Of a stretch of 26,276 nt of DNA, positions 1-23,800 are shown piece after piece (position 1 is the stretch's first letter; every line of letters begins with the position of its first letter). A program made the position numbers and the translations under genes. The DNA comes from a virus. The notes under the pieces are model-generated. The model made no database searches, had not been told where the DNA came from, and saw nothing but the letters and a program-made list of their open reading frames with translations. The stretch is taken from IMG/VR virus record IMGVR_UViG_3300020395_000089, positions 1-26,276 of that record; one strand, given 5' to 3'.

Positions 1-803
1 GTGTATCCAGATCCACCAGATGTAACAGTAGCAGAGGCAATACGACCACCATCTACAACAAGTGAAACTCTACCACCAACTCCGTCTCCTTTAATAGGCA
101 CGTTTTCATAGGTACCGTTGTTATAACCAGCACCAGATGATCCAATAACAATGGTATCAATCTCTCCACCGATAGCATCAGCAACAACAGCAGTGTCAAA
201 CAACACAGGCATGTACTCGTTGGAGAAGAATTTTAAGACCTGACCAACAGGGATCGTAAACATATACTTCCAACGGTAACCATCAGCAGTTGTGATAATT
301 GAAGTGGAGGTGCCAGTAGGCTCAACAGTACTAGGTTTACCGTTAGGATCACTAGGACTGGTGCCGTTGTAAATGCATTTATAAACTTGGTAAGACGAGT
401 TAACAACGTAGAAATCAGCGTCGTAAAGTTTAGTCGCACCCGATGATGCAGTTTTAGTCGAGGAGTAATCATGACGATACATATCATAAACATATCCCAA
501 GCCACCAGTGGTTTGCTCAGGGGGAATCCAGTCAGTACGACGGATAACCTGAATGGTGTCATTTGCTAACACCCTCTTCAGGGAGATCATATCCGAATAG
601 TCATCGGAAAATTCTTGGAATGAATCTACTGGGTCTGGAGGTGCGTTTTCGTTATCCCATGGTTGGGGTCTACCGATAAACACATAAAGGCGATCCCGAC
701 TAGTACCCGCTTCCAGGTCAGACTGAGTAGGATTTGGCCCTTCAAGTGCCTTCCTGAACCTTTCGGCAGTAAATATTCTAAATTGGTCGGTAAGTAATGC
801 CAT
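1..803 (-). CDS. 8: Baseplate wedge subunit gp8 (3' end outside window)
   Basis: 267 codons from ATG 801-803 run off the left edge. The sequence follows the T4 gp8 pattern: YVFIGRPQPWDNEN early (T4 has a GRSEPW-type motif here), then VIRRTDWIPPE, then NSSYQVYKCI, then the EP-GDGY-like stretch ADGYRWKYMFTIP and NEYMPV. In T4, gp8 is a wedge subunit that assembles with gp7 and gp10 during baseplate construction in the host cytoplasm. After the gp8-like core (from about residue 210) there is a Gly-rich module (IGSSGAGY; VVDGGRIASATVTSGGSGYT) like that in the neighbouring structural proteins. I do not associate this module with T4 gp8, so it seems to be a C-terminal addition or replacement in this phage. 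A CATAAATA box and an AGAAGG lie in the 34-base gap upstream. The start is chosen because no in-frame start precedes it and MALLTDQFRIFTAERF leads directly into the conserved region. Confidence 0.92.
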   Translation of the reverse strand, partial: MALLTDQFRIFTAERFRKALEGPNPTQSDLEAGTSRDRLYVFIGRPQPWDNENAPPDPVDSFQEFSDDYSDMISLKRVLANDTIQVIRRTDWIPPEQTTGGLGYVYDMYRHDYSSTKTASSGATKLYDADFYVVNSSYQVYKCIYNGTSPSDPNGKPSTVEPTGTSTSIITTADGYRWKYMFTIPVGQVLKFFSNEYMPVLFDTAVVADAIGGEIDTIVIGSSGAGYNNGTYENVPIKGDGVGGRVSLVVDGGRIASATVTSGGSGY

Positions 804-837: not shown

Positions 838-2742
838 TTATTCACCCTCGTTTCGGGAGAATGTATTATATTCAACAGCTTTGATGTTGGCTAATGCTCC
901 AGAGACATTACCTCTAAGCACTTCACCTACATTAAACTTATAAGTGTCACCGCTATTAACTAGACTCTTAACATCAATAGTGTATTGATTTGTCTTTGGT
1001 CCAGATACTCTACTAACAGACGTACACTTAACACCAGTTGTAACACCTTCTAACTCTTCTGCACCATTGCCTGCTTCGACATAGTGAAGATTTTGTGTAG
1101 TATATTCTATTATAATAGATGCAGTCGATGTATGAGTATCACCGTCGCCAAGTTGACCAGCAGACTGCACAGTTGCAACTAATGCATTCTGACTACCGTC
1201 ATATATCTGATCACCAATCTGTAATAGAGTGGTGTTTTGTCCACCAAGTGTTTCCTCTATACCATATTTAGACGATGCGATACCACCATCTAGATTAATC
1301 TGGTTTTCAAAGTCTGTACCTGTGTTAACAAGGTCAATAATACCATCACCAAATCTTTGTATACCTTCACTATCAGTATACTCTTCATCATCATCCTCAA
1401 ATGCTCTATTAAGAATAAGACCTAGTGGTACAGTGAAAGTAACAATGTCACTTCCTTCTACTTCAACTAAGACGTGAGGCTCAATACCTGTACCTGATGA
1501 TCCAGAAGTACCACCAACAAATGCTATATTCTTTGCCTTCTCATTTGATCTACCACCATCAATAAACGCTAGTTCATCAACCTCGAAGGTTAAATAGAGT
1601 GCTCTCTGGACAGGATCCCAGTCATATACTATAGCAACTCGGTTGTTAGATGACTCTTCAACCCTTCTTACTTTATCAGTAACACTGAAACTATAAGCAG
1701 TTAATCCAGTATCAGGGTTGTCCTGTAGATTATCAAGTATGACCTTCTGATCGAAACGGAAATTAATACCTCTATCACATCCAGTGAATGCGTCATATAA
1801 GGCACCATCTATACCTGCTTCAGTCTTACCTGTATATCTAACTAACTCTCTACCCAGTAGAATTTTACCTGAACCTGGGAAAGGTGCAGTAGTTTCAACT
1901 GGTATTTCTGTTTGACTTGAAGTTAAATCAGTTGTAATACCTGTAAGGTTGTATGTAACTGCATTTAACGACTGTCTAACTCTTGCTTCTCTAATAAGGT
2001 TAGTATCCCTAGTAAAGATAATCTCAGGAGGCGTACTATATCCACCGCCACCTGCCAAGAGGTTAATGCTTGTAATCTGTCCGAGGTTAATATACGCTTC
2101 GGCCGTTGCACCTGATCCACCGCCTTTTATTATCTGTATAAGAGGAGGATCCTCGAAGAATTCACCTTGATTTGTTAAGGTAATAGATGTAACCTGACCG
2201 AATGGATTAACAGCAGCAACACCAGTTGCACCCTGTCCACCACCACCTGAAATAATAAGGTTAACGTCTTCCTCAGTATAGTTTCTACCCTGCTCTTCAA
2301 TAGAAAGACCAGTTATCAATCCCGTGATTGGTACCAATTCAGCACCAGATCCACCACCACCTTCAATGCGAGCAGTAGCATCAAAATAACCATCACCAGG
2401 TGTGGTCATCTGAATGAAATCAATACTACCGTCTTCTTTAAGGAAGACTATACCATCTGCATGATTATCAGATGCATCATCTTCAACTACTAATGTTAAT
2501 GGGTTATATCCTTCACCAGGATCTAACACTTCCACAGCAGTAATCTCTCCAGCACTACCTTCTATTACAGGTCTTAGTACAGCATCACGAATAGGCGTAC
2601 CACAATTCGTAATACGAAGTCTTGGAGGGTCATTAGGGTCATATCCACTCCCAGGATTAGTCACATAGACATCTCTCACCCCTGATATACTATTAAATAC
2701 AGGGAAGATTTGTGCACCAGAGCCAGGGACTGTTCTTGTCAT
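838..2742 (-). CDS. Gly-rich modular virion structural protein, function unknown
   Basis: 634 residues, ATG at 2740-2742, separated from the preceding TAA by one base (TAATATG), so translation is probably coupled. Residues about 20-245 are tandem copies of a module of the form V-T-x-PGSGY followed by a beta-strand and GGGGSGA (for example ARIEGGGGSGAEL, IISGGGGQGATG, IIKGGGSGATAEA). The same module occurs in the giant protein and in gp8. After it comes a segment around residue 300 with GKILLGRELVRYTGK and RGINFRFD, a pattern I associate with marine T4-like structural proteins. The C-terminal 200 residues are acidic with no recognised domain; they end in GEVLRGNVSGALANIKAVEY, again resembling a segment of the giant. 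No signal peptide, membrane segment or enzyme motif is visible. Position between the gp10-like gene and gp8 points to a baseplate or tail component. It could be a fibre-baseplate connector. Confidence 0.9.
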   Translation of the reverse strand: MTRTVPGSGAQIFPVFNSISGVRDVYVTNPGSGYDPNDPPRLRITNCGTPIRDAVLRPVIEGSAGEITAVEVLDPGEGYNPLTLVVEDDASDNHADGIVFLKEDGSIDFIQMTTPGDGYFDATARIEGGGGSGAELVPITGLITGLSIEEQGRNYTEEDVNLIISGGGGQGATGVAAVNPFGQVTSITLTNQGEFFEDPPLIQIIKGGGSGATAEAYINLGQITSINLLAGGGGYSTPPEIIFTRDTNLIREARVRQSLNAVTYNLTGITTDLTSSQTEIPVETTAPFPGSGKILLGRELVRYTGKTEAGIDGALYDAFTGCDRGINFRFDQKVILDNLQDNPDTGLTAYSFSVTDKVRRVEESSNNRVAIVYDWDPVQRALYLTFEVDELAFIDGGRSNEKAKNIAFVGGTSGSSGTGIEPHVLVEVEGSDIVTFTVPLGLILNRAFEDDDEEYTDSEGIQRFGDGIIDLVNTGTDFENQINLDGGIASSKYGIEETLGGQNTTLLQIGDQIYDGSQNALVATVQSAGQLGDGDTHTSTASIIIEYTTQNLHYVEAGNGAEELEGVTTGVKCTSVSRVSGPKTNQYTIDVKSLVNSGDTYKFNVGEVLRGNVSGALANIKAVEYNTFSRNEGE

Positions 2743-2746
2743 ATTA
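2740..2746 (-). promoter_or_regulatory. TAATATG stop-start junction
   Basis: The stop of the gp10-like gene and the ATG of the 634-residue gene are one base apart with no visible Shine-Dalgarno, which suggests termination-reinitiation coupling. Confidence 0.5.
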
Positions 2747-3070
2747 TACGATTGTTATATTACCAACCATTGAAGGATGGAGTGTGCATTGATAAACATA
2801 TGTTGTGCCAGCAGCAACGTTTTGAGGCACAGTATAATATTGGACTCCTGTAGTAGATCCAGTAACACCTACATTTAAAGCAGCACCACCTGCTGACTGT
2901 CTTAATTCAAATGGGTGTGCTACACCAGAAGTGTTGTTAAATCTGTATGTGAATCCTCTATAAACATAGATTGTTGGATTATTTGCTGATGAATCCATAC
3001 CACCACCTGAGAATTGATACTCATTCATGGTAGGTGCAGTAATATTGAAACCAACTGTAGGACTCTCTAC
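2744..3070 (-). other. Cupredoxin-like domain with full type-1 copper ligand set
   Basis: Last 105 or so residues of the gp10-like protein. IYVYRGFTYRFNN forms the leading strands, His437 precedes PFEL, and YVYQCTLHPSM ends the domain with Cys480, His483 and Met486 (codons 2786-2788, 2777-2779 and 2768-2770). The 43-residue spacing from first His to Cys lies between those of amicyanin and plastocyanin. Copper binding is inferred. Confidence 0.72.
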
Positions 3071-4225
3071 AGGATCCCATGAAGTACCATTGAATATAAT
3101 ATTATCATTATTGGATGCACTTCCAGAAAGATAAAGATCTGCGTTTAGGGTTATCGTATCTGCTGTTGCAGCAGTTGTAACTCCATTACCACCCGCTACG
3201 GTTAATGTAGTAGTTGCACTTCCAGCAGCAGTTGTACCAGAGTCACCAGCGATTGTCTGGAATATATTCTGTGATACGTTTGGAGCATCATTAGTGATTG
3301 TAAGGTTGTCTCCTGATATAGCAGTGCTTATACCAGTGCCACCAAGTAAATTAATAGTAGCAGTAGCAGCATTTGCTGTTTTATTTCCTGAATCACTTCC
3401 AATAACACCATAGGCATTTTGGTTTAGGTCACCAAGGGTGCCTGTCATGTTTATGGTGAGGGTGTCTCCGACGATTGCAGTCGAGATTTCAGTGCCTCCC
3501 GCAACTGTAAGAACATCAGTAGGAGCACTAGCAGTAGTACTGCCAGTGTCAGCAGTGATTCCTTCAAAAAGGTTTTGAGTCGTTCCACCGCCTCCACCAG
3601 ATCCTGCCTCATCGTTTTTAGGCTCCCAAGCAAGATTAGAAGCGGACCATTTAAGTACTTGACCATCACTCGGACCTCCACCGACTGTCATATCTACGTC
3701 ATCAAGCATCCCTACACTACATGTCGTGTCTATTATCTTAGTCCACGCTGTATTAGTTGCATAGTATGCAGCAGCCTCATCGATAACAACACCAAACATT
3801 CCTTTATGATCAGTAAATGCTGGTAAATCACCAGATGTTGCAAAGTCATTAGACCATTTTAGTTTACCATCAGCACCATCAATATAGGTAAGTGCCGATC
3901 CAGTGTTTGCTGCCCAGAATTTGATATCACCACTACCGTTAGGTTGTACAACTATGTCACCGTTGTTAGATGATATGATTTTCTGACCAGATACATCTAC
4001 ATCAGCTGTAAATGCAGCGAAATGACTCTCAGCAAACTGAGCACCATTCCATATTAGAGTTTGTCCATTCGTAGGAGCACCTACGTTGACTTGAAGATTG
4101 GTATCGTTACCTAGATTGGTGTAAATTTCATCAATGACTTGATTCAATTTGATAGCACCATCTCTCAGACTGTCGCCTGTGCCGTCATTGGCGGTAGTAC
4201 CAATACTGAGTGTTTGTTTAGCCAT
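2744..4225 (-). CDS. gp10-like tail/baseplate protein with C-terminal cupredoxin-like domain
   Basis: 493 residues, ATG at 4223-4225. The N-terminus (residues 1-40: LSIGTTANDGTGDSLRDG, then IKLNQVIDEIY) matches the conserved start of T4 gp10 and related T4-type tail-fibre proteins, where it attaches the protein to the baseplate. Residues about 214-355 hold three beta-repeats (QN-x-F, DSG, GG-x-GISTAI, LTI), typical of marine phage fibre shafts. Residues about 390-493 look like a cupredoxin: a His in GVAHPFELR (residue 437) and a terminal CTLHPSMVGNITIV with Cys480, His483 and Met486. That is a complete type-1 copper ligand set, with the C-x2-H-x2-M spacing of amicyanin and the plastocyanin-like MVG-x-IT ending. 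Whether copper binds is untested. The only residue after the domain is the final Val. The gene stops 1 base before the next start, suggesting coupled translation. Confidence 0.93.
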   Translation of the reverse strand: MAKQTLSIGTTANDGTGDSLRDGAIKLNQVIDEIYTNLGNDTNLQVNVGAPTNGQTLIWNGAQFAESHFAAFTADVDVSGQKIISSNNGDIVVQPNGSGDIKFWAANTGSALTYIDGADGKLKWSNDFATSGDLPAFTDHKGMFGVVIDEAAAYYATNTAWTKIIDTTCSVGMLDDVDMTVGGGPSDGQVLKWSASNLAWEPKNDEAGSGGGGGTTQNLFEGITADTGSTTASAPTDVLTVAGGTEISTAIVGDTLTINMTGTLGDLNQNAYGVIGSDSGNKTANAATATINLLGGTGISTAISGDNLTITNDAPNVSQNIFQTIAGDSGTTAAGSATTTLTVAGGNGVTTAATADTITLNADLYLSGSASNNDNIIFNGTSWDPVESPTVGFNITAPTMNEYQFSGGGMDSSANNPTIYVYRGFTYRFNNTSGVAHPFELRQSAGGAALNVGVTGSTTGVQYYTVPQNVAAGTTYVYQCTLHPSMVGNITIV

Positions 4226-4246
4226 TTGAATACTTGATTACAGGAT

Positions 4247-4253
4247 TATTTAG
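4247..4253 (-). promoter_or_regulatory. CTAAATA box overlapping the YHYH stop codon
   Basis: The minus strand reads CTAAATA, containing the TAA stop of the YHYH gene, 21 bases before the gp10-like ATG. It resembles the T4-type late -10 box. The sequence is short and AT-rich, so chance is possible. Confidence 0.35.
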
Positions 4254-5842
4254 GTACCATCATAAGATTGTAAGGTAGAATCCATAGTAGATGCTGTACT
4301 ATCGAATCTATTATCAGTGCTTCCACCATCACCAGCACCAGTTACTGTCAATATTGCTGCTTGTGAATCTAATGGTGAGTTAGAAGCAGGTACTGGTGCA
4401 CCATTTGGACCAGTTATACGACATCTAAAGCGATACCCTGTCATATAGGGTAATGCAGTTAGAGAATAGGTGTCTGTAGTAGCACCAGTGATCACAGCGA
4501 ATGCGAAACCACCGTCTGTAGATCTATACCACTGATATGATACAGGTCCGTCCTCTGGTATTACCAACTTCTGTATGTTGAAGGTAGCAGTTTGACCAGA
4601 ATTGATAGTAACATTCTGTGGTTGTAATGTAAATTGTAAAGTTGGAGGTATTGGAGGGTCTCCACCGTCTCCACCATCACCACCACTGGATACAGGTGAA
4701 ACAGTATATCCAGTATCAATAGTTTCTCTAGTAGTATTGCCAATAATATAAGGGAATTTTGTTATATTATTGTCATCTGGGTCTACTGTTAGGAAATATG
4801 CGTACGTTCCAGTGGGATATTCAGGTGTAAAGCAATATCTACCGTTATGAATATCTAAATCTCCACTACCTTCCACATATTCATAGTCTTCCATGAGTGC
4901 ACCAGCAGGAGGATTGTCAGAATCCGTGCCATAATCAGGTCTACCAGGTGCTTCTTGGTCTCTTACACCATATTGAGTCCTCATTGTACGAGTACCACTC
5001 AAATTATCGAATGGACTACTATATCCAAAAGGACCATAGATGGGAAATCCGTCAAAACATATGCCAATTATCTTAGAATGACCGTCAGGATGACGAATAT
5101 TATTACCATTAAACTGTGTATTACCGTAATAATCGTTATAACTTGCCATTGTTGAATTAGTTTTCCAACAATCTAAGAAATGTGGGTCATGATAATGGTA
5201 TTCGCCTGACTGTGTAGGATGTCCACCACAATCATCTTCTCCAGAATCAACAAAAGGGGCATCTCCAGCAGCAACCCAACTGAATCCAGCAGGTGGATTT
5301 AATCCAGTACCAGCAGACGGGTTAAAAATAGCAACTCCATTACCAGCAACTCCTATGTTCCCCAGTGGCGTGGCACCTCTACCATTTCTACTATCCCAAT
5401 ACTCATATGTACCATTAACAGGAGTAATCTCCTGAGTATCCATGATTAAATCTATTCTATCATCTGCTGCTAACCAGAACTCACCAGAGATAGAAGTAAA
5501 CTCAGTACCTTTATAAAGATATCTTAAGTGCAACCCATCACTAAACTTAAACATTACATGGTCACCAGCAACAATATTACCACCAGTAAAGATAGTAAGA
5601 TCAGTTACTGATAATGCTATTGAACGAATGAATCCGTCATGTGTATACACATTGGAATCGAATGTCCTAGAGGTACCGAACGTACCGCCTCTATACAAGA
5701 AATCGTGATCAAAATCTTGCTCAGTAGGTACATTAGGGTTATTATCGTTAGGAAATGTACCATGTGCCACTGGCGTTGGTAATCCATTGGATGCCACCGT
5801 AAGTATTTTAGTACCTTGGTTATAGGTTGCTGTTGCGCTCAT
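4250..5842 (-). CDS. YHYH-domain structural protein with C-terminal Ig-like domain
   Basis: 530 residues starting at ATG 5840-5842, 8 bases after the giant gene's stop. Residues about 160-385 carry the YHYH domain: CGGH, then EYHYHDPH (YHYH at residues 215-218), HSKIIG and DGFPIYGPFG, then LDIHNGRYCFTPEYPTGTYA and FPYIIG. YHYH proteins are a secreted or surface family of unclear biochemistry; the conserved His, Cys and Asp residues suggest metal or ligand binding, but that is not shown here. Residues about 396-501 form an Ig-like beta-sandwich (SYQWYRS, then YRFRCRITG). Ig-like domains are common add-ons of tailed-phage structural proteins. The first 140 residues are unassigned. No clear Shine-Dalgarno is visible; a CTAAATA box spans the preceding stop codon. 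Most likely a virion surface or fibre-associated protein co-expressed with its neighbours. Confidence 0.93.
   Translation of the reverse strand: MSATATYNQGTKILTVASNGLPTPVAHGTFPNDNNPNVPTEQDFDHDFLYRGGTFGTSRTFDSNVYTHDGFIRSIALSVTDLTIFTGGNIVAGDHVMFKFSDGLHLRYLYKGTEFTSISGEFWLAADDRIDLIMDTQEITPVNGTYEYWDSRNGRGATPLGNIGVAGNGVAIFNPSAGTGLNPPAGFSWVAAGDAPFVDSGEDDCGGHPTQSGEYHYHDPHFLDCWKTNSTMASYNDYYGNTQFNGNNIRHPDGHSKIIGICFDGFPIYGPFGYSSPFDNLSGTRTMRTQYGVRDQEAPGRPDYGTDSDNPPAGALMEDYEYVEGSGDLDIHNGRYCFTPEYPTGTYAYFLTVDPDDNNITKFPYIIGNTTRETIDTGYTVSPVSSGGDGGDGGDPPIPPTLQFTLQPQNVTINSGQTATFNIQKLVIPEDGPVSYQWYRSTDGGFAFAVITGATTDTYSLTALPYMTGYRFRCRITGPNGAPVPASNSPLDSQAAILTVTGAGDGGSTDNRFDSTASTMDSTLQSYDGT
4340..4655 (-). other. 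Ig-like domain of the YHYH protein
   Basis: FTLQPQNVTINSGQTATF, then VSYQWYRSTDGG and YRFRCRITG. It is clearly related to the terminal Ig-like domain of the giant protein encoded just upstream (both read VT-(I/V)-N-x-G-x-x-A-x-F, then YQW), suggesting sharing of a domain between neighbours. Confidence 0.78.
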
Positions 5843-5847
5843 TGAGT

Positions 5848-5854
5848 TATTTAG
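5848..5854 (-). promoter_or_regulatory. CTAAATA box overlapping the giant gene's stop codon
   Basis: Same CTAAATA string with the TAA stop of the giant gene inside it. Only 5 bases separate it from the YHYH ATG, so a transcript begun here would be nearly leaderless. A promoter role is therefore weaker than at the other two sites. Confidence 0.25.
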
Positions 5855-8800
5855 ATGTCATCAAAGATTTGTGTTGGTAAGAAGTTGCTTAGGATTGTAG
5901 CACCAGTCTGGACGCTCAATATCGCAGATAGTGAGTAAACTGGAGTTGCTCCAGATGCAGTGATCGCAACACGATATTCGTCACTGTCATCAGCTTGTGT
6001 TGTATTTGGAGTGTTGTATGTTGACTGGTTAGCACCAATGATGTTGCTCCATGTTTGTGTACCATACTCCTTCTTCTGCCACTGATAATTCATTGTCTGA
6101 TCGTTAGTTACGGTAGAGACAACTGTGAATGCAGCAGAGTAACCTTGGTTAACAGTTACGTTAACTGGGTCTGTAGTAATAGCGATTGTGCCAGCTTCAA
6201 TATCTCCAGCACCACCTGTGTATTCAGATCCTTCGCCAGCGAGTACGTCAAATCCACCGTTAATTGGAGATCCTTCTGGAGTTGTGAAACTATCAGGTAC
6301 TTCATTGTCTATAGTAACGTTTGGTAATGCATATCCAATACCAGCAGTCTTAACATCAATTCTAGTAACACCCATCAATGCCTTGATGCGAGCATCAAAT
6401 CCAGAGGAGGAGATAACATCAACGTTAGGACGTGAAACGTAACCATCACCAGAATTGGTTAGGTTAGCATTTGTAATCTGTCCAGAAGTGATAGCAGCAA
6501 TAGCAGCAGCGTTTCTACCCTTAACAGATCCAGTGTACTCGAATGTGATTAGTGAGTTTGAAGACTCAATTAGAGCAACCTCACGAGCAAATTCTTCACC
6601 GTCTATTTCAAGTTTGTCACCAGCTTCGATTGGTGGTACAACTGTTGCTGCGATAACGTCTGCGTCAGATCCAATGTATGAGAAACCAACGAAAGTTGAT
6701 CCCGCACGTGGAACTTCAGCGAAGATTAATCGTGAACCAACAATCTCATATGCGAGTCCAGGTTCCTGTATAACACCGTTAAGTGATACGATAATATTAT
6801 TCTCAGGACGGATAACGTTAGATGAAACACCTTCAGTTAGAGTCAAGGAGTAGAATAATCCAGATCTCTTAAGGTTGAAGGAAGATCTCAATGAGTCAAA
6901 CTCATAACTGATATCATCTAATTGACGTAACTTACCAACATAGTAACCAACGAATTGTGATCCAATTACAGGTGCCTCAGCAAACTGAATCTTATCAGAG
7001 AATGCAACGTAAGAGTTATTACCACCAGGAGGCTGCATGATACCATTAACAAATGTTAATATGTGTCCAGCAGGGTCTGGGAAGTATGCTTCACCATTAG
7101 AGATAGTTAAATCAAACTGTGTCTGACTACCATCAAATCCTCTGAAGTATCTGTCAACTCTACCCTCAAGTGTGCGAGCAGAAGAAACAGCACCACCCCA
7201 TCCGAAGTCAGATATAACTGACATATTATCAACGAATAAACCAGATGCGTCTTCTACCCAGATCTCAGCAGTAATACCAACTTGCTCGATTGATACGACT
7301 TTAGCGTATGATGAGTAAGTTGTTGTAGTTACGTTAGTAACATTAGCATATATGCTTGGGAAGTTAGATCCAAGATCAATCTTACCAATGTTATTTGTGC
7401 CAGCAGTTACAGCATCAATTGTCTCACCTGTGCCTACTGGAATTACGTTACCAACCCAGAGTTTGTGTATGCCATAATTAGGATCTGTATTCTCAAGTTC
7501 TAAACCATTAATGTAATTAGTTACAGTTGCTTTGAATCCTGGATTCTTCTCAGCAGTACCTTGTAGGAGTGATACTTCATCACCAACACGGAATGTATCA
7601 TTAGTACCGATATCAACGATTGCAACTCCAAGATCTAATTCATAGACCGCAGTACCATGTATGTACTGGTTAAGTTGAATCTGTGTACCACTTATACCCT
7701 TAACTGAAAGGATGTATGAAGTAACACTACCGTAGATAACATCGCCAGGTACCCACTGAGCATCGATTGTTTCAACATCAATTGTGATACGACCACCAGT
7801 ATTACCTGTTAGTGATCCAGACTTATTAACATATTCATCAATATATCCTTCAGTATTAGATTCTTTAGAGAAGAACCAATCGCCTGCTGCAAATGCACCC
7901 ATAGAAACATTAAGTAAGAATCTATCAGTTGGAATACCAGCAGTACCTGTAGCACCAGTTGTCTGACCTTCTAATACATCATTTTGATTAATAGTACCAG
8001 CGATAGTTTGTAGTTTAACTAATGATGTACCATCAGTAGACCTCTCAGTCTGCATTACGAAACCAGTATTTGATCCAGCACCTTGTACTTGAACTGTCTC
8101 ACCATTTGCAAAGATCTCATACTCACCACCCTGTGTTGTTGACATTCCAGTGATAGGATAATGTGTATACAACTTACGGATACTTGCTTCGTTATTTTGT
8201 ATTCTTCCTATCTCAGACTCAGCACCTGAAACACTACCGTAGATAACGTCAGCAGGATTGAATCCACCTTGGATTGGTGTATCTGAAGGATCAATTGCAT
8301 ATACTGGAGCATTACGTGTAATACCACTTCTCTGTACAACTGCCATGATTTGTGATCCATCGTTAGAGGTATCTACCTGTAAGATTCTAAATCTTCCATC
8401 ATGGATGTAAGAAGCACCAATTTCAAACCACTCAGCAGTAGCAGTCAAGCAATAGAAGTAAGGTTGATTTGTCAATCCAGCTAATGATGTATCAGATGCA
8501 GGAATGTAACTTAGTACGTCACCACGTCTGAAGTTGTTAGCACGGTTAATTCTAATTCTATACTCAGCACGATCAAATCCAACTTCAACTTCAGGAGTTA
8601 GTGTAACCAATGCAGGGTCAGTATTGTAATCCCAACCTACCTCATACTTGGTAACTCTGTTAATAGCATCAGTAGATGCAACGAATGTAACTCTTGCTTC
8701 TGTTGGGAAGGATGATCTTTCTAGAGCAAACTCAATTGGGTTAAGTGAAGAGTCAATTATAAACTCAACTGCTTCCTGATTCCACTCAAGTCTTCCAGGT

Positions 8801-11800
8801 GGTTGCCATACATCATAGTTATCCCAAACAGTATCAGTACCAACAAGATACATGATACTCTTAATGTATTCTCTACATCTTGTTAGAGCGAATAGAATCT
8901 GAGATCTAACAACATCTTGGAATGCAATAAAGTTACCTTCACCATCAAACCAATCTTGTGTCATCGCAAATGCACCAGCATTACCACCTGTAATCAAGTC
9001 ATAACGGACTGCCTTGAGGACATCATTGCAGAAGTCAATAGTTAAGTTAGTAGATGGGTAACTTGCTTGTGTATCAGAGAATGCTCTTCCAGAAATTGCT
9101 TGCTGATTGAAGAGAATCATGTTAGCTATAATCTTATTATTATATGTGCCAGCACCAAGAGTGGTTGACATACTATCGAATAATGTATCGATAGCAGACT
9201 GGACATTGTAACATGTACCTGACTGATAGTTACTATTAGTATATGCAGATGGGAATGTCTTAGTTACGTTATTAACAAGATAGTTCTGGTTGTTGTTTGC
9301 TGCTTGAGATATAGTTTGAATGTATATGTCAGCAATTGTACTAATTGCAGAAGCAGTTTCATTACATGTACCAACCCAGTTACCATTAGAATCTTGACCA
9401 CCACCAGATGTGTCGTATGTGATTGTTAAATCTCTAGCAACTACATCAGGAGTATACTTGACAGGCCATACAGTTGGTAGGGTGTAAGATCTACTAGCAA
9501 TCTGATTAGGATTAGTAAATGCATCTGTTGCGAAAGTAACAAGAGTAGTAAGTTCGTTTTCTACGTTAGAAGACTCAGTGCCACTATATGCAGGATCAAC
9601 TAGACGAGATCTATAGTAATCTAGATCAGATCTTGTAGGCCATGCCCATGACTTAACATGTTGGACTGGTAATTTCTGTCCATCAGCATAGTCTGTAACA
9701 CGTGGATATGTGTGGTTAGTCTGGTTGCTATCCTGTGAGCATGTAAAGGTTAGTGAATTACTATCAATGATAACAGCATCATCGGTACCAAGACTATGAC
9801 CTGCGACAGTTAGAGTTAACTGACCACTTGTAGGCTCATAGTATGCGTCTGTAGGTGTTAACTGAGTACCATCATTAGCAACAGTAATACAATTAGAAGC
9901 AGCAGATACAAATGTATGTCTGTAATTACCACCCTGAACCAGAGCACCAGCATTAGCACTTACAAATGTGTGCTGATATGTATTTCCAGCTGGTGACTTA
10001 CCAACGTTAATTGTAATAGTACCGTCTTGTTTCTTAAGACCTTCCTTCTTAGCAGATACAAATGAATGAGTACCAAGGAATGAGGAAGGAATCATATTGA
10101 ATCCTAATACACCAACATCAAATTTGGTTGTAGATACATTGTGTACTGGTAACCATTGATTGCTTGCATGGTCAGTAGGTCTTGGATATGTATGAGGAGT
10201 TTCATCCTTATCAAGATCACATGTAAATGATAATGAGAAGTCATCAAACATTACATAATCATTTGCCTTAACAACTCCATTAGTATCAGCAGATACGAAT
10301 GTATGTCTGTAACTACCACCACCTATAACAGCACCAGCTAGAGCACTTACAAATGTGTGGTCATACATGTCAGCAGTTGTTTGTGCAACTTCAACATCAA
10401 CAGTAATCTTACCAGATTGTCTGTGAAGACCATTATGCTTCGCATCAGCAAATGTATGTGTATAGTTACCACCAACAGTAACACCGTTTGTGAGAGCAGA
10501 ATTGAATGTATGAGTATACTCACCACCGATAGTAACAATAGATCTTTGGACGTTAGATGCGTTAGAAGAAACGAATGTATGTACTGTTGTATTTGTAGAA
10601 GGTATATCTGTTAATACTTGGACATCAAAGAGGTCACAATTAACATTAGAAATCTTCAACCATCTTCCACTTGAAGGATCAGTTGATCTAGGATATGAAT
10701 GGTTAGTAACATTGTTATCCTTCTTACATGTGAATGTTAATGAATTATCTGCAATCTTAACGTACTCACCATTAATGAATCCGTTACCAACCATGATACC
10801 ATTTGCAGTAGAAGACTGGAATACATGAGTAGTAGTGTCAGTGATAGCACCTTGACCACCATTAACGTTAACCGTAATTGTTCCACCTGCTTGGTCTACA
10901 GCAGTTATATCTAACTCATTATTGTATGCATAGTCAGCACCATCTGTTGTAAGAGCACCAGCAGCACGAGGATATGTCTTAGTAGTTACGTTTCCGTCTC
11001 CACCATAATCACATGTAAATGTTAGAGAGTTAGGTAACAATCTAATAGTATCATCAGTGGTTAAAGTGTGAGCACCGATTGTTAATTCTAAAGTACCAGA
11101 TGTTGGGTTGTATGCTGCACCTGAAGCAGTCTTTTTCTCTCTAGGTACAGAGAGTGTCATAAATCCACTAGCAGGATTGTATGATGCAGTCTCTGTGGAG
11201 TATGTGTTATTAGCGTTTTGGAATGCGTGAGTTGTGGTGTTAGAAGATGTACCAACATCAACTGTGATACCATCAGCAGTAACAGCAGTAATCTCAACTC
11301 TATTATTGTATGCAGGGTCATTACCTGAAGCACCACCCCATCCTGTAGGACGTGGATACCAGTGATCAGAATTTTGTGAGTCTTGATCACAACGGAAGAC
11401 CATTGATTTGTTTGCAATCTTAACGTAATTACCAACCTTAAGTTGATGGGTACCGATGGTCATTGTTAGAAGACCAGTACCAGGTACGTAAGATGCACCA
11501 CTTACTCCATAACCAGTAGCATGAGATTCTCCAACATCAAGTTTGATTGTTGTATTCTCTCTCATCAAACCATTATCTTCAGCACTTACAAATGCGTGAG
11601 TATAGGATCCACCACCCTTAACAACACCTCTAATAATTGCACCTGTTTCAGCAGATGAGAAGTTATGAGTTGTTGTGTTAGATGATGTACCAACATTAAC
11701 TGAGAAGGAATTAGCATCAATATAGGTAACAGTTAACCATGCGTTATTAGATGCAGGATCCTGTTTTCTAGGATATGCATGATCGCTATTGAAACTATCT

Positions 11801-14800
11801 TGCTGACATCTGAATACAATAGACTCATCCTTAATCTGAATCTTATCTCCATTAGCAAATGGGTGACCAGCAATTGTTAGTACTAAGACTCCAGTACCAG
11901 GTGTAAATGTTGCACCTGTAGGTGTGAATGCATTAACAGATCTTACAAATGTATGCTGAGAAGTATTAGAAGAAATACCAACGTTAACTACAACACTATC
12001 AGCAGTAACTGATTGAATTGGAATAGAAGTATCATAATATGGATCGTCAGCACTAGCACCACCTTGACCGTTTGCACGAGGATAGAAGTGCTCAGTTGCA
12101 TTATCATCTAAGAGACACTTGAATACTAATGACTGATTCTCAATCCATAATGCTTCATGTGCAACCTTAAGTCCATTAGGAGCAGCAGTGTTAAATGTAT
12201 GAGCATAACCACCACCAGAAATTACAGCACCAGCAGAAGTACCACCAGCCCAGATGTGTGCTGTTTCGTCAGTGATTGCTCCCTGATTTCCGTTAACATT
12301 AACTGTAATTGTTGTACCAGTCTTAGCAGTAATTGGTATGGCAGTATCATATACATAATCCTTACCATTTCCAGTAGAAGCACCAGATGATCTTGGATAT
12401 GTCTTCTGAGTTGTGTTACCATCGCCATTAAAATCACAAGTGAATGTTAATGAATTAGGTTTAATCTTAATACTATCACCAATATCTAATGAATGAGATC
12501 CAATGGTAAGTTCCATGTTACCTGATGTTGGATTGTAATTAGCATTAGTTACGTTATGTGTAGACTGAGGTGAAGTACCTACATTAACCTCAAATGTATC
12601 ATGAGTGATATTACTAATAGGCATCCACTGATTAAACTGAGGATCGGTAGTCCTAGGATAAGTCTTAACAGATGTATTTCCATCCATTCCACAAGTGAAT
12701 GATATTGAATCTTGACCAATCTTAACTCTGTCACCGATAGTAAATCCATGAGAAGGTATTGTGACTGTCAACTTACCTGATATAGGATCATAACCAGCAT
12801 CAGTAATAGTATGAGTGGATCCACCTTTATAACCATGTGGTCCAATCTTCAGTGTCATATCACCTGTAGTAGGCTCATATGTTGCATCAGAAACAAGATA
12901 ATTTGCACGAGATGTCTTACCAACTTGAATATTCAAATTGTTACCAGAAACACCAGAAACTTCTAACCACTTATCATATGATGGGTCGATTCCCTTACGA
13001 GGATAAGAGTGATTAGTTGCATTGCCATCCATATCACAAGTCATTACAAGTGAGTTTGGCTTCAACTTAATTCTATTACCATTACTGAATGGGTTATTCA
13101 ATACAGTTAGTGTTAATACACCAGTCTCAGCATTATATGCTGCACCAGATGCTGTGTACTCTGCATGTCCTACATCTTTAATTTCTATAGAATGATCGTA
13201 TGCTCTATCTCTCTTATGAGTTACACCACCACCGACAGCAGAAACAAATGTATGAGAGAATGATCCACCCTTTCTAATTGTACCTCTTAAGATTGAGTTA
13301 ACCTTAGCAGTTACAAATGTATGTGTGTCTGTATTTGTAGAAGGTACCTTATCAAGTACTTGAACTCTGAATGTGTCTTGTGTTACATTAGAAATAGTTA
13401 ACCACTTATTGCTTGCAGGATCACCATGTCTAGGATAAGCATGCTCACTTGCATGGTCATCTTTAGCACATGTGAAGATTAATGCATTATCTTCTATCAA
13501 TACTTGCTCACCATCTAACATTCCATGATCAGGAATTGTGATGGTCATAACACCAGATGCACCACTATAAGTTACATTGGTTGGTGTCTTACCTACAGCA
13601 GGTTTGAAGATATGAGCATGATTAGAAGATCCACTAGGTGAAGAGTTAACGTTAACTGTTATAGTACTATCATCAACAGCAGTAACATTAATAGCGTTAC
13701 GGAATGCAGGGTCATTAGCAGTTGCTCCACCTACACCATTTGCTCTTGGATATGTGTGATCAGATGAATGACTATCTAAGTTACAAGTAAACATCATTGA
13801 GTACTCATTAATATAGATGCTATCGTTAACTTCTATACCATGATCAGGTCCAACAGTGATTACCATATTACCATTAGACTGATTATATTCTACATTCTGA
13901 GGATCGAAACTTCTAAACTCAGACTTACCAACAAAGATGTCAAGAGTATTATCAGTTACATTTTCTACAGGCTTCCACTTACCACTGATAGGATCAGAAG
14001 ATCTTGGATATGTCTTAGCTGATGTATTACCATCCATTGTGCAATTCAATGACAATGCATTGTCTGCAATCTTAATAAGAGATCCATTATCTAATCCATG
14101 ATTAGTAATAGTAAGAGTTAGATAACCTGTATTACCATTAAAGTCTGCACCTGTAGGAGTGAATGAATCAATAGTTGTCCTTGGATAAGCATGTTGAGAT
14201 CCATTTTGATCCATGTCACAAGTAAATGTAACTGCACCATCAGCAAGTTTAACGTGCTGACCTTGCTTCAAGGAATGACTACCAATATTCAACTCAAGCA
14301 TACCTGTGTAAGGATCATAAGAAGCATCAGTAGGTGTGAATTGTGCAGCAGCAGTTGTACCAACATTAACTTCAAATGCATCTTGAGTTACATTGGATAT
14401 CTGTACCCACTTACCACTGATAGGATCTGTACCTCTTGGGTATGCATGGTCAGATGAATTGTCATCCATTGTGCAATTCATATGTAAAGCATAATCATCT
14501 AACTTGATGAAGTCACCGTTAGAGAATCCATGCTTAACAACTGTCATTGCTAATACACCTGAAGATGGAGTATAAGTTGCAGCAGTTGGAGTATGTCTTG
14601 TTACACCATCATCAATAATTCTTAATGAATTGTTGTATGCTGGATCAGTAATTCTAGGATATGAGTGCTCAGTAGAGTTACCATCCTTAGAGCATGTGAA
14701 TGTTAAACCATCAGCAGCAATCTTAATACTATCATTACCCTTCATCATTGTTGCAACAGTAATACTCTTAGGTACTGCTGATACGAATGAGTGAGTAGAA

Positions 14801-17800
14801 GTATTAGAAGAAGGTATATTGAATAATACTTGTACGTCAAATGTGTCTTCAGTGACGTTACTTACCTTCATCCATTCATCACTATATGGATCATTCTTTC
14901 TAGGATAAGAGTGATTAGTTTGGTTACTATCCTGTGTGCAGGTCATAGTAACAAATCCATCTTGTACCTTAATTCTTCCACCATTTTGTAGACCATGCTT
15001 CGCAGAAGTTATGGTCATAACACCTGTTGTTGGATTGTATGCAACATTGGTTGGTGTTAGTTGTGCAGGAGCAACAAACTTATGACTGTAGTTACCACCA
15101 GTTACAACTTGTGCTCTAGTAACACCATTAGGAGTAGCAGACTCAAACTGGTGTAATGTTGTGTTTGTAGATGGAATATTCTCAAGTACTTGGACATCAA
15201 ATGTATCATCTGTGCAATTAGAAATTGTTATCCACTTACCACTTACAGGGTCACTACTTCTTGGATAAGAATGAGGACTACCTAGACTATCTTGTAAGCA
15301 TCTGAATGTTAAAGAGTTATTGTTAATCTTGATGCTCTCTCCATCATGGAATCCATGATTAGGAATAGTAAGAGTCATCATACCTGTTGCAGGTAGATAG
15401 TTAGCATTGGTTACAGTATAAGTCTCAGTACCAGGAATGAAGGTATGAGCATACTGACCACCAGCAACTAATGCACCACTTACTGCACTCTGGAATGAAT
15501 GAGTTGTTGGGTTAGTAATTTGTCCATTACCAACATCAAGTGTAACAGTACCAGTTTGTCTGTGTAATGAATTAGTATCAACAGAAACGAATTGATGATC
15601 GTATACATCATTAATAGCAGACTTACCAACTTGGACAGAGAATCCAGTAGTACTTACATTACGGATTGGTAACCACTGTCTGTATGTTGGGTCAGATCTT
15701 CTTGGATAAGTATGATCTGATTGATTGTTATCTTTACTGCAAGTAAATGTAATTGCATTCTCATCAAATCTTACAAAATCACGTGCATGATAAATTGCAC
15801 CAGTTTCAATGACTGTACAATTGTGAGTTGTAGTATTAGAGATAGGTGAGTCACCATAAAGATTACCAACCTGTAGATCGAATGTATTACTACCGATATT
15901 AAATGCTTTTAACCACTTACCAGAAACAGGATCAGAAGGTCTTGGATATCTGTGATCAGATGCTTGACTATCTTTATCACATCTAAATGTAAAGACGCTA
16001 TCTCTGATCATCAGCATGTCACCATTCTTCACAGTGTGACCATTCTTAGTTAACCTTAATATACCTGTAGTAGGATAGAAGGTGCACATTGTAGGTGTAA
16101 TCTCATTAGGTCCTAAGAAAGTATTAGCAACCGTAATCTGCATACTACCCTCAGTTGGGTTGTATGAAATAGTAGAAGGTGTATGATCTGTTTCACCAAT
16201 TTCCCATACAGGAATGTTAGTATCGTAGAAGTGATCCTTCTTATGAGTTATGCAATTGTTAGTAGCAGATAAGAAAGCATGAGCTGTAACATGAGTAGAA
16301 GGTATTACGTCAAGTACTTCAACTACGAAAGTATTAGCAGTTGTATCTTGTATCTGACACCACTTACCAGCAACAGGGTCTGTTGCTCTTGGATATAGGT
16401 GAGCAGAAACTACAACACCAGTTACACATTCTATATTCTCATCACCAGGTCTAAAGGTATGAGTACTTGTATCTGTAATAGCACCTTGTCCACCATTAAA
16501 GTTAACAAATACACTGTCAGCAGATACTGAATTTATTGGTAGATATGCATCATATGCATAGTCCTTACCATTTGAAGTTGCAGCACCTGTTGCACGAGGA
16601 TATTTCTTCTCAGTTACATTACCATCACCATTAAAGTCACATGTGAATACTAGAGACTCAGGTGTAATCATAATCATATCATTAGTTGTTAAACCATGAT
16701 ATTGACCAATAGTTATTTCTGCTACACCTGTTGTTGGGTTGTAATCTATAGCAGTAGGTGTATGTCTTGTGATATCTTTCTTACAACTGAATGATAGAGA
16801 CTCATCAGCAATCTTCACATATGAGTATGGTAAGAATCCATGATTATCAACATGGAATGTAAGCTGACCAGTATTAGGATCATATCCAACATGAGATGGA
16901 GTATGTGTAGTAACAGCAGATCTAGGATATGTGTGGTTACCTGAATATCCATCAGCAGCACAACTGAATGTTAATCCATTATCCTTAATTCTTACACTAT
17001 CACCAGCATGTCTAACACAGTTAGTTACAGATGTTGAATAGGTGTGATCGTAGATTCCACCAGTTACAATAGCTGCTCTATGGACACAATTTGGAGAAGC
17101 ACCAATAAAGGTGTGTAGAGTTGTATTACTCTGAGGGATATCTGTTAGTACTTGGACATCAAAACTTTGTGAGGTTACGTTACTAACTTCAAACCAATTT
17201 CCTGAGAATGGATCAGAAGGTCTTGGATAAGTATGTTTTGTTGTATGTACATCCAATGCACAAGTGAATGTTAATGAATTGTTATCAATCTTGATCTTAT
17301 CTCCATTTTCAAATCCATGACCATCAATGGTTAGATTAAGAATACCTGTTACTGGGTTGTATACAGCACTTGTTGGAGTGTATCCTACATGTGGTATAAA
17401 GGTATGATCTGTAGTATCAGAAGATTGACCAACATCAAGAGTAATTGTGCCATCCTTCTTAGTGATTCCACCAGTGCTACCCTGCACGAATGTATGAGTA
17501 GTAGTGTTGGTTGAAGGAGCATAACTTAATACTTGGACATCGAATGTGTAAAGACCTACATTGGATACTGCTATCCATCTATTTGCATATGGATCACCTG
17601 ATCTAGGATATGCATGGTTAGATCCATTATTATCTTCTAAGCATTGGAATGTTACAGCATTTTCTTTAAACTTAACTTCATCACCATTACTCAATCCATG
17701 AGCAGAATCACAAGCAACAGTCATAATACCTGTTGTAGGATTATATGAAGTACCTGTAGTTGCAGTTAAAGGTGATCCATCATGAATGATTGGACATGGC

Positions 17801-20800
17801 TTGTTATAGAATGGGTCAGCACCACCGTTACCAGAGAAGTTAGATCCTGAAGATCTAGGATATGGATGTAATGATTGGTGAGCATCTAAGAAACAAGTAA
17901 ATGTTAGAGACTCTTTTGCAAATCTTATAGATTGACCATTACGAAGATTATGATCTCCAATGGTAATCTGCATGTGTCCTGTTATAGGATTAAAATCAGC
18001 ATCAGTAACTAGGAATGGAATTTCAGGAGTACGTCCAACGAATATATCAAACTCATCTTTAGATACGTTTCTAATATCCATCCACTTATCACTCATTGGA
18101 TCAGTTGATCTAGGATATGCGTGGACTGAAGCATTAGCATCCATTGAGCAAGTGAAACTTACTCCACCATCAGCAACTTTAACATAATCACCAGCAGAGA
18201 ATCCGTGGTTAGTAATCTTCAATCTCATTAATCCAGTCTGACCATTATATGATGCAGTGGATATACTATGATCTGAAGATTGACGAAGTGTTGTCTTTCT
18301 ATCTGTTGTTAATACTAACTTACCATCAGCAGGAGTAAATGTAGCACCATTTACATCATATTGTTGCTCTGGTGTCTTACCTACGTTAACAACAATAGCA
18401 TCATTAGTTACCCCAACAATAGGTGTTGGCTCATTGTGGATTGGGTCAACGTGACGAGGATATTGATGCACTGAAGCATGGTCATCCATTGCACAAGTAA
18501 ATGATAATGACTGAGATGCAATCTTAATATTAGTACCCGTAGTTAAACCATGACCATTACCGACAGTCAATGTTAATTGACCAGTAGTAGAGTTAAATGA
18601 TGCAGCAGTTGGATTCCAACCTACAGTTGGTGACTCTCCAACATTAACAGTAAATGTACCACCATCAATATCAGACTCTACAACATCTAACCACTTACCA
18701 CTGCAAGGATCAGTTGATCTAGGATATACATGCTCACTGTAATAGTTGTCCATGGAGCATGTGAATGTCATGGAGTTATCAAAGATTTGTATCTGCTCAC
18801 CCTTAGTAATCTTATGACCAGGAACTGTTAGAGTAAGAAGACCCTTAGTAGCAACATATTCTGCATGAGATGCAACGTGCATATCTGCACCAACAAATCT
18901 ATGCTGACCGATATCTAATTCTAATTCACCATCAATCTGATTATAATTTGCATCAGATACGTTGTACTCAATCTTAGGTGTTTGTCCAACGTTAACAGTG
19001 AAACTATTTGTAGTTACTTGCTCCACTAACATCCAAGCATCACCAGCAGGATCCTTTGCTCTAGGATATCCGTGCTTAGTAGAATGATTATCTTGAGCAC
19101 AAGTGAATATTATAGATCCATTCTTAATTTGTATTTGATCACCAGTTTGGAATCCATGTGCATTAGACTGACATACTAACAATCCAGTTTCAGGATCATA
19201 TGTAGCATCAGATATAGTATGCATTGTAGAATCAGTCATACCATGGAAAGGTAGAGTGATTGACATACTACCATTCTCAGGATTATATTCTGCATCCTCT
19301 ACAGTATGTGCAGTAGCACCAACTGCAATAACTTCTACAGCAGCATTACCAGCTGGGTCACCAGATCTAGGATAAGAATGAGTTGAAGCATTATTATCTT
19401 GATCACATGTGAAGTTTATAGAGTTAGTTGCAAGTGATAAGAAAGTACCAACCGTCTGGTTATGTGATCCTATAGTCATCACCATATCACCACTGCTACT
19501 ATCATAAGAAGCATGATTGATATCGTACTCAATCTTAGGAGCAGGACCGACGTTAATTGTGAAGGTGTTAACAGTAGCAGACTCACCATTAACTAGGTTT
19601 CCACCACCAATAGCATATCCAGCAAAGTTAGAAGAAGCGAATATTCCACCACCACCTGTTAGACCAGTATAGTTTGCACCAGGAGTTGATGCTTCACCAA
19701 CAGGTGTGCCGTCAATCCAAAGTTTTACTCTACCACTACCAGTACCTAAATTACCACCAATACGGATCTCCCATACTAACTCATGGTCACCATCATCAAA
19801 GTATGCAGATAGACCACTGATTTGTAGATCAAGCATTGCAAGACCATTATCATTATGGTTTGCACCACCAGTGTAAGCATTAGATCCATCACCAGCTCTT
19901 AATCTGAAATATGTACCACTATCTCTAATACCAAACCATACACCAGATGATGAATCACCTGCTTCAAATAAACATCCGTCAATTGGGTTAGAAGGTAATT
20001 TTGTAACACAACGGAATACTGCATCTTCATTAGTTACAATTCCAGTGCCACTATCAGTTGTAGAAATCTTATCTTCACCAGCAATGAATGATCTGGTTAC
20101 AAGGTTATTAGGTTGTGCAACAATAATACCTGTATCAGCAACAGAATTGAATAGTGAATTATTAGGTCTTGGGACAGCATCATAGAATCTCTGATCAACA
20201 TTATGACCAGCATTGTTAGTAATAACCTGACCCTTCATGGCACGAATGGCAAATTCCTTTGCCTTATTCATAATCCAGATAGTCTCAGCAGACTGAGCAG
20301 TAACGTGATCTAAAGCACCATTATAAGTGGTATAGAATTCAGCAGAATACTGCATCCAGTTGTTACCACCATACTTAAGGTTAAATGCTAATGATCTTAG
20401 AATATCAGTAACGTCATGGACACAGTTAGCTGGACCTCCAGGAATTAGGAGATTCGGGAATTGTACAAGTCCCGCAGCAACCGCTTGCTCTGCAATATAG
20501 CGTATATTTCCATCAATAGCATCCCCACATTTCTGATACATCACTTCACGTGGGTTTTGCTCATATGATTGTACTGGTGTTGTTTGTAAATCAGTACCAT
20601 CAATGTAGTCTCTACCAAATGCATTACGCATGGTAAGAGTCATGATATCTCTTAATATCTTAACTACAGTTATAGATGCTTCCCACTCACCCTCAATATG
20701 CTTAAGAGAGTTATCTTCTGTCTCAACATATAATGCAGCAGCATCATATGTCTTCTCGTTACAATCAAAGCGAAGGTCATGAACCGCTGCCTCGATCATA

Positions 20801-23800
20801 TCAAGTACATCATCTTCACAATTAACTGCTCCACCAGGAATCTGTAGATTCTCATACTTGGAGAGATCATTCATAATTGCTACGCATTCTTTAGCAATTA
20901 TTCTTCTATTATTCCAGATAACATCAGCAGCGTCAAGGTATCTGTCATTAGAGTTTCTACCAGTTGGACCCTGAGGATATGCTTCAGTATCAATTACTAT
21001 ATTCTCATCTCTATATGCTGCTCTTGCAGTGTATAGAGGACTGTAATACTCTTCTTGGATATATGAAGGTGCAATAGCTCCCAACTCAGAAGCAGATTCA
21101 CCTGAAGATAATAATAGGTTATTAATTGCTTTGAAGCAAAGAAGCTTAGTATGCTCGAATGCATCAAGCATTGGATTAAGCTCAGACTCAACATGAATTA
21201 CATTCTGTTGATTATCAAGATACTTGTCAATTACAGCTTCAGTCTGATATGTACCACCTGTAGCAAGGTCAGCAATTACAGCAGGAAGAATGAAGTCTTT
21301 AACATCCCTTTCACAATATGGTTGTCCATATCCAGGCATCTCAAGGAAGTCAAATGTGATACCATCGATATCCTTCTCATACTTATTCTGAATGAATCCA
21401 GCAACTTCTTCTGCGATATAATCTCTATTCTTCCAAAGTTGATAACCACCTTCTCTGAATCTCTGATCCATAGGAGCAACAACCTTAAGTAGATTTTCTC
21501 CTAAAGTGTTAACCTCATCAGTTGTGTTAGATGAAGCAGGTGTTGAGAAGTTATTAGGTATTCTCAATCTAGTACTATACTCACCAGTAAGATCACTAGA
21601 TGTGGTTGTAATAACATCAATACAGATCTTAAATACTTCATTCCATGTATAGAGAGATTGTAGAATCTCAGCAGCGATGTGATCTAACTTACCACTAGCA
21701 GTTAGATAAGTCCTTGCAGTATAGATTGTATGGAAGTCTCCACCTTCTTGAAGGTCTTTAATAAGTGCTCCAAGGATGTAATCCTTAGTATCTCTTACAC
21801 AAAGGTTAGTACCACCATATACGTTATTACCAGGATCGTCACCACGAATAGTGAAGTCTGGGAATGCAACCTTCATTCTACCGACTGCCTCTTCAGCAAT
21901 CCATGCAGCGTTAAGGTCAATTATTTCAGCACATCTCTTCTGCTCTGCTCTACCAGTGTCAACGTCTTCTACGATGATATCTCTATCTGAATAATCAATA
22001 GACTTAGCAGTTGCAGATGAAGAATTCTGTCCACAGAATGTAGCATAACAATCAGTAGTGGAGCATACAAATGGTGCTTCACCATCTAGACCAAATACGA
22101 TACTATCTAAATCGTAATTAATTGTATTAGGTGAAGTGAAGTTTGCTTGACGATCACCTACTCCTTTCTTGATTACAAAGTTATCAATATGACCAGCCCA
22201 ACTATTTGCTAAGTTAAAGTCTGCTCCAACATATGCACCACCATATAGGTAATCATTTGTATCAACGTAGTTAGATCCAACTTGTGATCCATTTACGAAT
22301 GCCTGTGTAACACCACTTGATCTACAGACTGAAATATGATACCAAGTACCTGTAGTCGCAAATACATCTGTACTAAGGATAGTATTGGTCGTGCCGTTAT
22401 ATACCTTTAATTTCTGCCCATCCATCAAGATATTCAAACCTTGAGCAGCAGTTAGTCTTCTAAAGTCTACAAGTACTTGTGTGCCGACATTAGCAGCAGG
22501 ACGGATCCAACCTTCAATTGTGAAGTCTCCAGTGCCAAATTCAAAGTCTTTACTCTCTGTAGCAACTATATGACCGTTAGTTGGAATATAAATCGATTTA
22601 TTTCCTTCTAATTCTGCTTTCTTGATTATTACACTTTGAGAGCAATTTGTGTTTGTGAGGGTGGAATTAGTGAGATATTCTCCATTTTGGAATGTACCAG
22701 TAATTGGACCCGCAAATAACCACTTAAGACCAGAATTAACTCCAATTGCGCTGAATACAGCACCAGAGGTAATACCTTTGATTTGATCGTTAGTTATGAA
22801 TAATCCAGATGACTTATCCTTATATGCAAGTTTTATAGTCCTTACAGTCTCATTAGCAACAAATGTACCATCAGAAACAAGTGCAAGGCTATTAACGTTG
22901 GTTAGGTTGCCAGCAGTCATTGCAGTTGTTGCAATGCCAGCTAAAGTGTCAACATAAGATTTAACGTTAGCACAGTTGTTAATATCCTGATTATTACCAG
23001 ATGCATAGTTTGCATCGAAAGTATTAGCAGGAGCAACACCACCAGAGTAAGTAGTAGGATCATTAAGGTTATAACCAGCAGTATTGAGTTCCTTCCAATA
23101 CATCAAGTTATTGATCGCCTGATACATTAATGTCCTTGCAGAGTTGAATGCAAAGACTGCTTCTGCCTCTTCACCAACAATACCGTTAGTTAGAGGTACA
23201 CCAGCAGCATCGAAGAATTTCTTAGTAAATTCAACGGTATTGTAGTTACCACCAGATCCAATATCCTCAGCAATAGAATCAATGAAATATCCAAGGTCAC
23301 GACGACACTTCTCTTGATGAGGTGAATATGTGCCTTCTGTTTCATCAGGAAGTTCAGTTAGAGAAGAAATATTCAATGCTTCGTCTATAAACTCCCAAAG
23401 TGTTGAAAGTGCAGATTGTACGTCTGAGCAGTTCTCAGAATCAGTATTAGAGGTATTAGAGCCAGCAGTGCCATATGCATCATTAGGTGATGGGTCAGCA
23501 GTGATTGTTAGGTCTTGATAGGCAACCCAAGAGTCTCCAGAGTTAGCAGCATTGATTGTGCCAGAATAACCGTTAGCAAGAGCAACTAAGCAACGATCTT
23601 TTGCTTTCTCGTATGCAAAACGTGTTTCGGCCGCTTGGGCATTGACGTAGGTTAAATTACCGTTAGTATCGAAGAATTGTTGGATAAACTTACGAGAATA
23701 ACGATTACCACCTGCATACATGTCAATAGTGATTGCATCGATGAATAATCCGATATCTCTCTTACATTTGTCATCTGAAGGAATAGAAGATCCAGGATAC

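Follow-up and report, generated by a model that had tools for sequence, protein, structure and literature searches.

What does a virus gain from stringing 31 copies of one small domain along a single virion protein, and is this domain really without a family? Both questions are raised by a stretch of DNA of 26,276 nucleotides (IMG/VR record IMGVR_UViG_3300020395_000089, positions 1 to 26,276; hereafter the window), whose relatives are T4-like cyanophages, i.e. abundant ocean viruses.

A giant protein in the gp7 slot

The following genes were recognised in the window:

5851 to 26274, minus strand: giant ORF of 6,807 aa, virion structural protein in the gp7 slot (open reading frame; phrog_701)
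4250 to 5842, minus strand: YHYH-domain virion protein, next gene downstream of the giant (PF14240, E 2e-34)
2744 to 4225, minus strand: gp9/gp10-like baseplate protein (PF07880, E 2.6e-9)
838 to 2742, minus strand: conserved hypothetical protein in this gene cluster (by position)
3 to 803, minus strand: gp8-like baseplate wedge protein, truncated at the window edge (PF09215, E 4e-14)

The order YHYH, gp9/10-like, conserved hypothetical and gp8-like is common to P-RSM6, P-TIM40, S-WAM1 and S-SZBM1, and the position of the YHYH gene downstream of the giant gene is repeated in P-TIM40 and other isolates. On the upstream side, gp6 adjoins the giant gene in S-WAM1 and S-SZBM1, where the stretch shown reaches gp6, and, judged from the look of the upstream ORF, also in the related contig G005. 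The order gp6-giant-gp9-gp8 is found in P-SSM3, P-SSM7, S-P4 and S-RIM8, and annotated isolates have the gene order gp25-gp6-[giant]-gp9/10-gp8. The giant gene lies between the gp6 and the gp8/9/10 genes, the position of T4 gp7, and it is annotated as "similar to gp7" in P-SSM3, as "gp7" in S-RIM8 and as "baseplate wedge initiator" in S-WAM1 and S-SZBM1. The term "gp7 slot" is a positional statement; by sequence, the N-terminal part, searched as a profile of 1,194 columns, matches nothing in the PDB at E <= 1, and thus not the solved T4 gp7 either. The first-pass annotation had regarded the repeat protein as a virion protein, which agrees with the gp7 slot and with the array-less S-SZBM1 orthologue (6,619 aa), for which 71 peptides were detected in CsCl-purified virions (PMC9146016). 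Long tail fibres are reported to be absent in S-SZBM1, S-WAM1, P-RSM6 and P-TIM40 (PMC9146016).

The N-terminus of the giant ORF is open and lies beyond the window edge. In the close relative G005, the ORF is complete with 9,922 aa (G005:C1:10346-40111, stop-free, uncultured cyanophage), which corresponds to about one megadalton, and since the open frames of other relatives comprise 9,458-9,914 aa, the complete protein of the window probably has around 10,000 aa. The 9,922 aa of G005 stand against 6,076-8,573 aa in the isolates compared here. The gp7-slot giants of the Kyanoviridae (P-SSM3, S-WAM1, S-SZBM1) occupy the same locus, and their N- and C-terminal parts are 37-68% identical to those of the window protein. 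A YHYH domain (PF14240) is also present inside the N-terminal part of the G005 giant ORF (aa 1400-1545, E 9.5e-28).

The array and its unit

Within the giant ORF, the array and the units referred to below are as follows:

9622 to 19521, minus strand: YPR array, aa 2252-5551, with 31 YPR motifs and 32-34 profile matches (HMM)
17122 to 17382, minus strand: unit u8, modelled singly with AlphaFold (pLDDT 89.6, pTM 0.77)
14740 to 15441, minus strand: units u14 and u15, modelled together with AlphaFold (pLDDT 90.2, pTM 0.51)
14335 to 14595, minus strand: canonical unit u17, YPR at aa 3945, about 87 aa (profile match)

An array of 31 repeats had been proposed at 9655-19555, and this array is real: exactly 31 YPR motifs stand in one open frame on the minus strand (ORF 5851-26274), from aa 2301 (window 19374) to aa 5523 (window 9708), and the HMM-defined extent is close to the span first given. 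An 86-column unit profile, made from 30 of the YPR units, detects 32 copies within the ORF, each domain with E <= 6.3e-9, and a second unit profile finds 34. One profile copy (aa 3125-3167) is without YPR and several are truncated, so that the two profile counts show the number of 31 to be right, give or take truncated copies. At the DNA level, a strict 57-base pattern (F-x-C-x2-D-x5-H-x-YPR-x2-D) has 16 matches, compared with 0 in 100 shuffles.

The spacing from YPR to YPR is 59-169 aa with a mean of 107, in line with the proposed unit of about 107 residues, but the conserved core has a length of only about 80 aa (TPTxAxYxPTTGxLTLTIxxHGLxxGDxIKIxxNSLTFTCxxDxxxSxHxYPRxxDPxxxxWLxIxNVTxDTFxVxVG), and the rest is spacer. 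The spacers vary from practically nil to more than 100 aa and frequently take the form of a beta-hairpin resembling STNTTTHTFVSA. Across an alignment of 69 units, G13, C41, Y52, P53, R54 and D57 are invariant, and H22, D44 and V78 are nearly so. From the H-x-YPR signature that was suggested, YPR is retained in all 31 motifs, but the preceding H is replaced by K in some units. According to the AlphaFold model of u8, the unit is a folded beta domain of about 80 residues with seven strands (5-9, 14-18, 29-31, 37-40, 49-52, 63-67 and 73-77), in which the H-x-YPR segment is predicted to form a strand and not an unstructured linker. The model of two consecutive units, with its pTM of 0.51, does not fix the angle between them.

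Resemblance to known families

A single unit matches no Pfam, NCBIfam or PDB-sequence family above the cut-off, which upholds the initial impression that its signature belongs to no well-characterised family. The unit is contained in PHROGs, in protein clusters that have no domain name, with significant profile matches of phrog_1276, phrog_5342 and phrog_701 to 69 of 69 units each and of phrog_18802 to 68 of 69. These four clusters (phrog_1276; phrog_5342, tail fibre; phrog_701 and phrog_18802, virion structural protein) are made up of the cyanophage proteins discussed here; PHROGs cluster whole proteins, and the repeat therein carries no domain name, function or structure. As the unit has been clustered there and hundreds of annotated cyanophage genomes contain it, its family is not unseen, and the claim of an undescribed family holds for the missing name but not for the sequences themselves.

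There is a faint, repeated resemblance of the unit to HG..GD beta-barrels in fold and motif, but the signals are individually not significant and we do not claim membership. The first of these barrels is the E1_FCCH domain of ubiquitin-E1 (PF16190), with which the unit has the hairpin HG(F/L)xxGDxIKI in common. An array piece of 1,640 aa scores 29.8 bits against this family, just above the gathering cut-off of 29.5 bits that single units do not reach (best 18.9 bits among the units listed); only 24 of 70 positions match, and the C..D..H.YPR..D segment of the unit is outside the alignable part. In Foldseek, Uba1/Uba6 are among the matches of a single unit, with E-values of at least 1.0. The second is the endosialidase barrel (PF12195; phi92, 4hiz), which is the solved chain with the highest Foldseek probability (0.91-0.95; rmsd 2.9-3.0 over 79 columns, TMq 0.50-0.51, E 0.3-0.55; the match is given per chain). 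By sequence, PF12195 is weakly matched by 7 of 69 units, with the best score among the units listed (14.5 bits) below the cut-off of 35 bits, and the sialidase domain is absent here. An hhalign comparison relates the unit to a HGLLVGDQVTIYG (HGLLVGD) module in the N-terminal part of the giant protein itself (63%). For the single unit, every fold-match E-value against the PDB is above 0.1, and sequence matches to HG..GD families span just the HG..GD hairpin.

Other candidates were rejected. An iota-carbonic anhydrase match (PDB profile, E 2.7e-5) is the sum of three repeats of 5-11 bits, each with an i-Evalue of at least 3.7; a CTP synthase match has an E-value of 0.39; and fibronectin/plexin folds matched the two-unit model with rmsd values of 15-22, none at E <= 0.001.

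Helical repeats around the array

Around the array lie seven phycobiliprotein-like helical repeats, each about 125 aa long. These repeats and the other regions of the giant ORF are:

23527 to 23892, minus strand: helical repeat 1, phycobiliprotein-like (profile)
23068 to 23469, minus strand: helical repeat 2
22171 to 22563, minus strand: LamG/concanavalin-like domain (PF13385, E 1.1e-13)
21562 to 21960, minus strand: helical repeat 3
21088 to 21480, minus strand: helical repeat 4
20605 to 20982, minus strand: helical repeat 5
20188 to 20571, minus strand: helical repeat 6, directly before the insert
9694 to 20181, minus strand: segment absent from S-SZBM1 and S-WAM1, aa ~2032-5527, a stretch of about 220 aa plus the array (blastp, local alignment of flanks)
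8806 to 9159, minus strand: helical repeat 7, after the array
5854 to 9594, minus strand: C-terminal region, 50-54% identical to P-TIM40, P-RSM6, S-WAM1 and S-SZBM1

A profile made from 43 helical repeats has 144 PDB matches at E <= 10 (best E 1.2e-6), and the best 60 of these 144 are, without exception, phycobiliproteins or their fluorescent-protein derivatives. In the C-x-R-D motif of the helical repeats, C is present in 40, D in 42 and R in 22 of the 43, and the aligned Cys is the one that attaches bilin in phycocyanin. With PF00502 (cut-off 22.2 bits), a piece of 860 aa reaches 22.3 bits, its best stretch being helical repeat 6, which gives 16.3 when it is excised; the cut-off is exceeded in 4 of 13 phages, scored with neighbours in frame. 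The literature searched holds no description of phycobiliprotein-like repeats or bilin in such a virion protein, and genes for phycobilin lyases are reported in many cyanophages (PMC10665884). A virion protein with phycobiliprotein-like repeats in cyanophages deserves a separate study. The LamG/concanavalin-like domain is a candidate carbohydrate binder. The roughly 220 aa that separate helical repeat 6 from the first YPR unit (19525-20181, minus strand, aa ~2032-2250) have no Pfam family match; this stretch is among the faster-changing parts (dN/dS 0.20-0.43) and belongs to the segment that is missing in S-SZBM1.

In P-TIM40 and P-SSM7, YPR units lie within one helical repeat, in both cases in the same loop (YPxLxIxG^..C..D), and P-RSM6 has 5, 5 and 10 units at three sites of one protein. 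The arrays therefore behave as insertable cassettes.

Distribution, variation and selection

Relatives were found in 293 phage records, all of them named Synechococcus, Prochlorococcus, cyanophage or marine virus, and the host of the window phage is deduced from relatives only. No psbA was found on related fragments, a result that carries no information on the host. Comparing the number of units in related phages, as had been suggested, gives a series from 31 down to 0: IMG/VR relatives with the array complete in the stretch have 31-24 YPR motifs, and the isolates, in contrast to the 31 of the window, have 19 (P-RSM6), 11 (P-SSM3 and P-SSM7), 6 (P-TIM40) or 0 (S-SZBM1 and S-WAM1). In the latter two, the flanks join cleanly and the entire segment is missing, and the array therefore is not essential for infecting their hosts. 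YPR units also occur in other tail proteins of cyanophages, namely in the tail-fibre family phrog_5342 and in phrog_1276, a protein that adjoins tail-fibre genes in P-SSM5; the smaller proteins carry them singly or in pairs.

Between the window and its relatives, the units are mostly colinear, and single units or short runs have been gained or lost. Orthologous units are 63-85% identical, whereas paralogous units share 38% on average and at most 59%, which rules out a recent tandem duplication, and the units are not homogenised. The array evolves under purifying selection, with a dN/dS of 0.20-0.35 where the large flanking parts have 0.13-0.29, and its protein identity is lower than that of the flanks.

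In genome collections, the DNA pattern has 31 loci, of which 27 contain real units and four have no YPR unit. One locus carries the name "Nonlabens xiamenensis" (NZ_RMVE01000006.1, 188,235 bp), but 8,000 bases of it are 98.7% identical to P-TIM40 (genome 188,632), so that the contig apparently comes from a P-TIM40-like phage and was included in the assembly of a bacterium. The remaining loci with units come from a Prochlorococcus single cell or from MAGs of marine or aquatic origin, and we take the MAG loci to be phage contigs, too. As the match in a named isolate is a cyanophage contig, a cellular origin of the units is rejected on present evidence.

What the array may do

With moderate confidence, we propose that the baseplate carries the array as a cassette-like surface for adsorption; such a swappable string of 31 domains is probably a sticky or extending surface for reaching the host. 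In a T4-like marine cyanophage, the baseplate wedge protein in the gp7 slot would carry a cassette of about 31 beta-barrel-type domains; this cassette would project from the baseplate, and its long multivalent surface would touch host-surface polysaccharide during adsorption. The nearest isolates reportedly lack long tail fibres, and the array could in this way take over part of the role of such fibres. Each unit would either be a diverged member of the HG..GD beta-barrels, known from phage tailspikes, or simply resemble them, with the C..D..H.YPR..D segment as structural core motif of the barrel and with binding specificity in variable loops, and units gained or lost one or few at a time may tune reach or avidity. 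The lectin-like LamG domain in the giant protein and the presence of units in the tail-fibre family phrog_5342 count in favour of adsorption, as do phrog_1276 next to tail-fibre genes in P-SSM5, the dN/dS values and lower protein identity of the array, and the mostly colinear order of units that are conserved between orthologues.

What alternatives exist for such an adsorption surface? The main one is a passive spacer or extension rod, in which the units just lengthen or thicken the baseplate protein while other parts, such as LamG or other fibres, do the binding. This is possible, if somewhat doubtful. Regular, small tandem beta domains whose number differs between close relatives would suit a rod, as would the invariant core positions and the purifying selection, and tandem beta repeats are described as extenders in RTX adhesins (PMC7493085). 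However, single or paired units in smaller proteins, several sites per protein and insertions in loops fit surface decoration better, and it would be surprising for a mere rod that paralogous units are very different (38%) though each is conserved.

It is unlikely that the array, without any receptor role, is a variable decoy or a shield protecting the virion from host defences, proteases or co-infecting phages: the array protein does change faster than its flanks and is present in some phages and absent in others, but a dN/dS of 0.20-0.35 is well below 1, the core residues are invariant, and there is no direct evidence here of a defence that acts on virion surfaces. Quite improbable is a chemically stabilised or catalytic array with a metal ion per unit or cross-links by Cys (disulphide or thioester), for which the invariance or near-invariance of C41, D44, D57, R54 and mostly the H near YPR would speak, but several units have K instead of H, and one Cys per unit cannot form a disulphide within the unit.

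A more far-reaching form of the adsorption surface, which we consider speculative and rather unlikely, would be a megadalton adsorption organelle made from the gp7-slot protein, with a scaffold descended from phycobiliproteins and with cassettes of YPR units, as a new and individually specialised glycan-binding beta domain, that sit in its loops and linkers and replace the long fibres; the helical repeats may even still attach bilin at the conserved Cys.

Implications

New here are an unnamed domain family in known virion proteins, an unusually long array and its insertion as a cassette. As there is now a defined domain with a profile, a natural series of 0-31 copies on a single conserved backbone and precise points of insertion, the number and site of units can be tested against host range. 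The YPR unit thereby offers a way into how T4-like cyanophages without long fibres recognise their hosts, and its profile would allow the annotation of hundreds of "virion structural protein" records.
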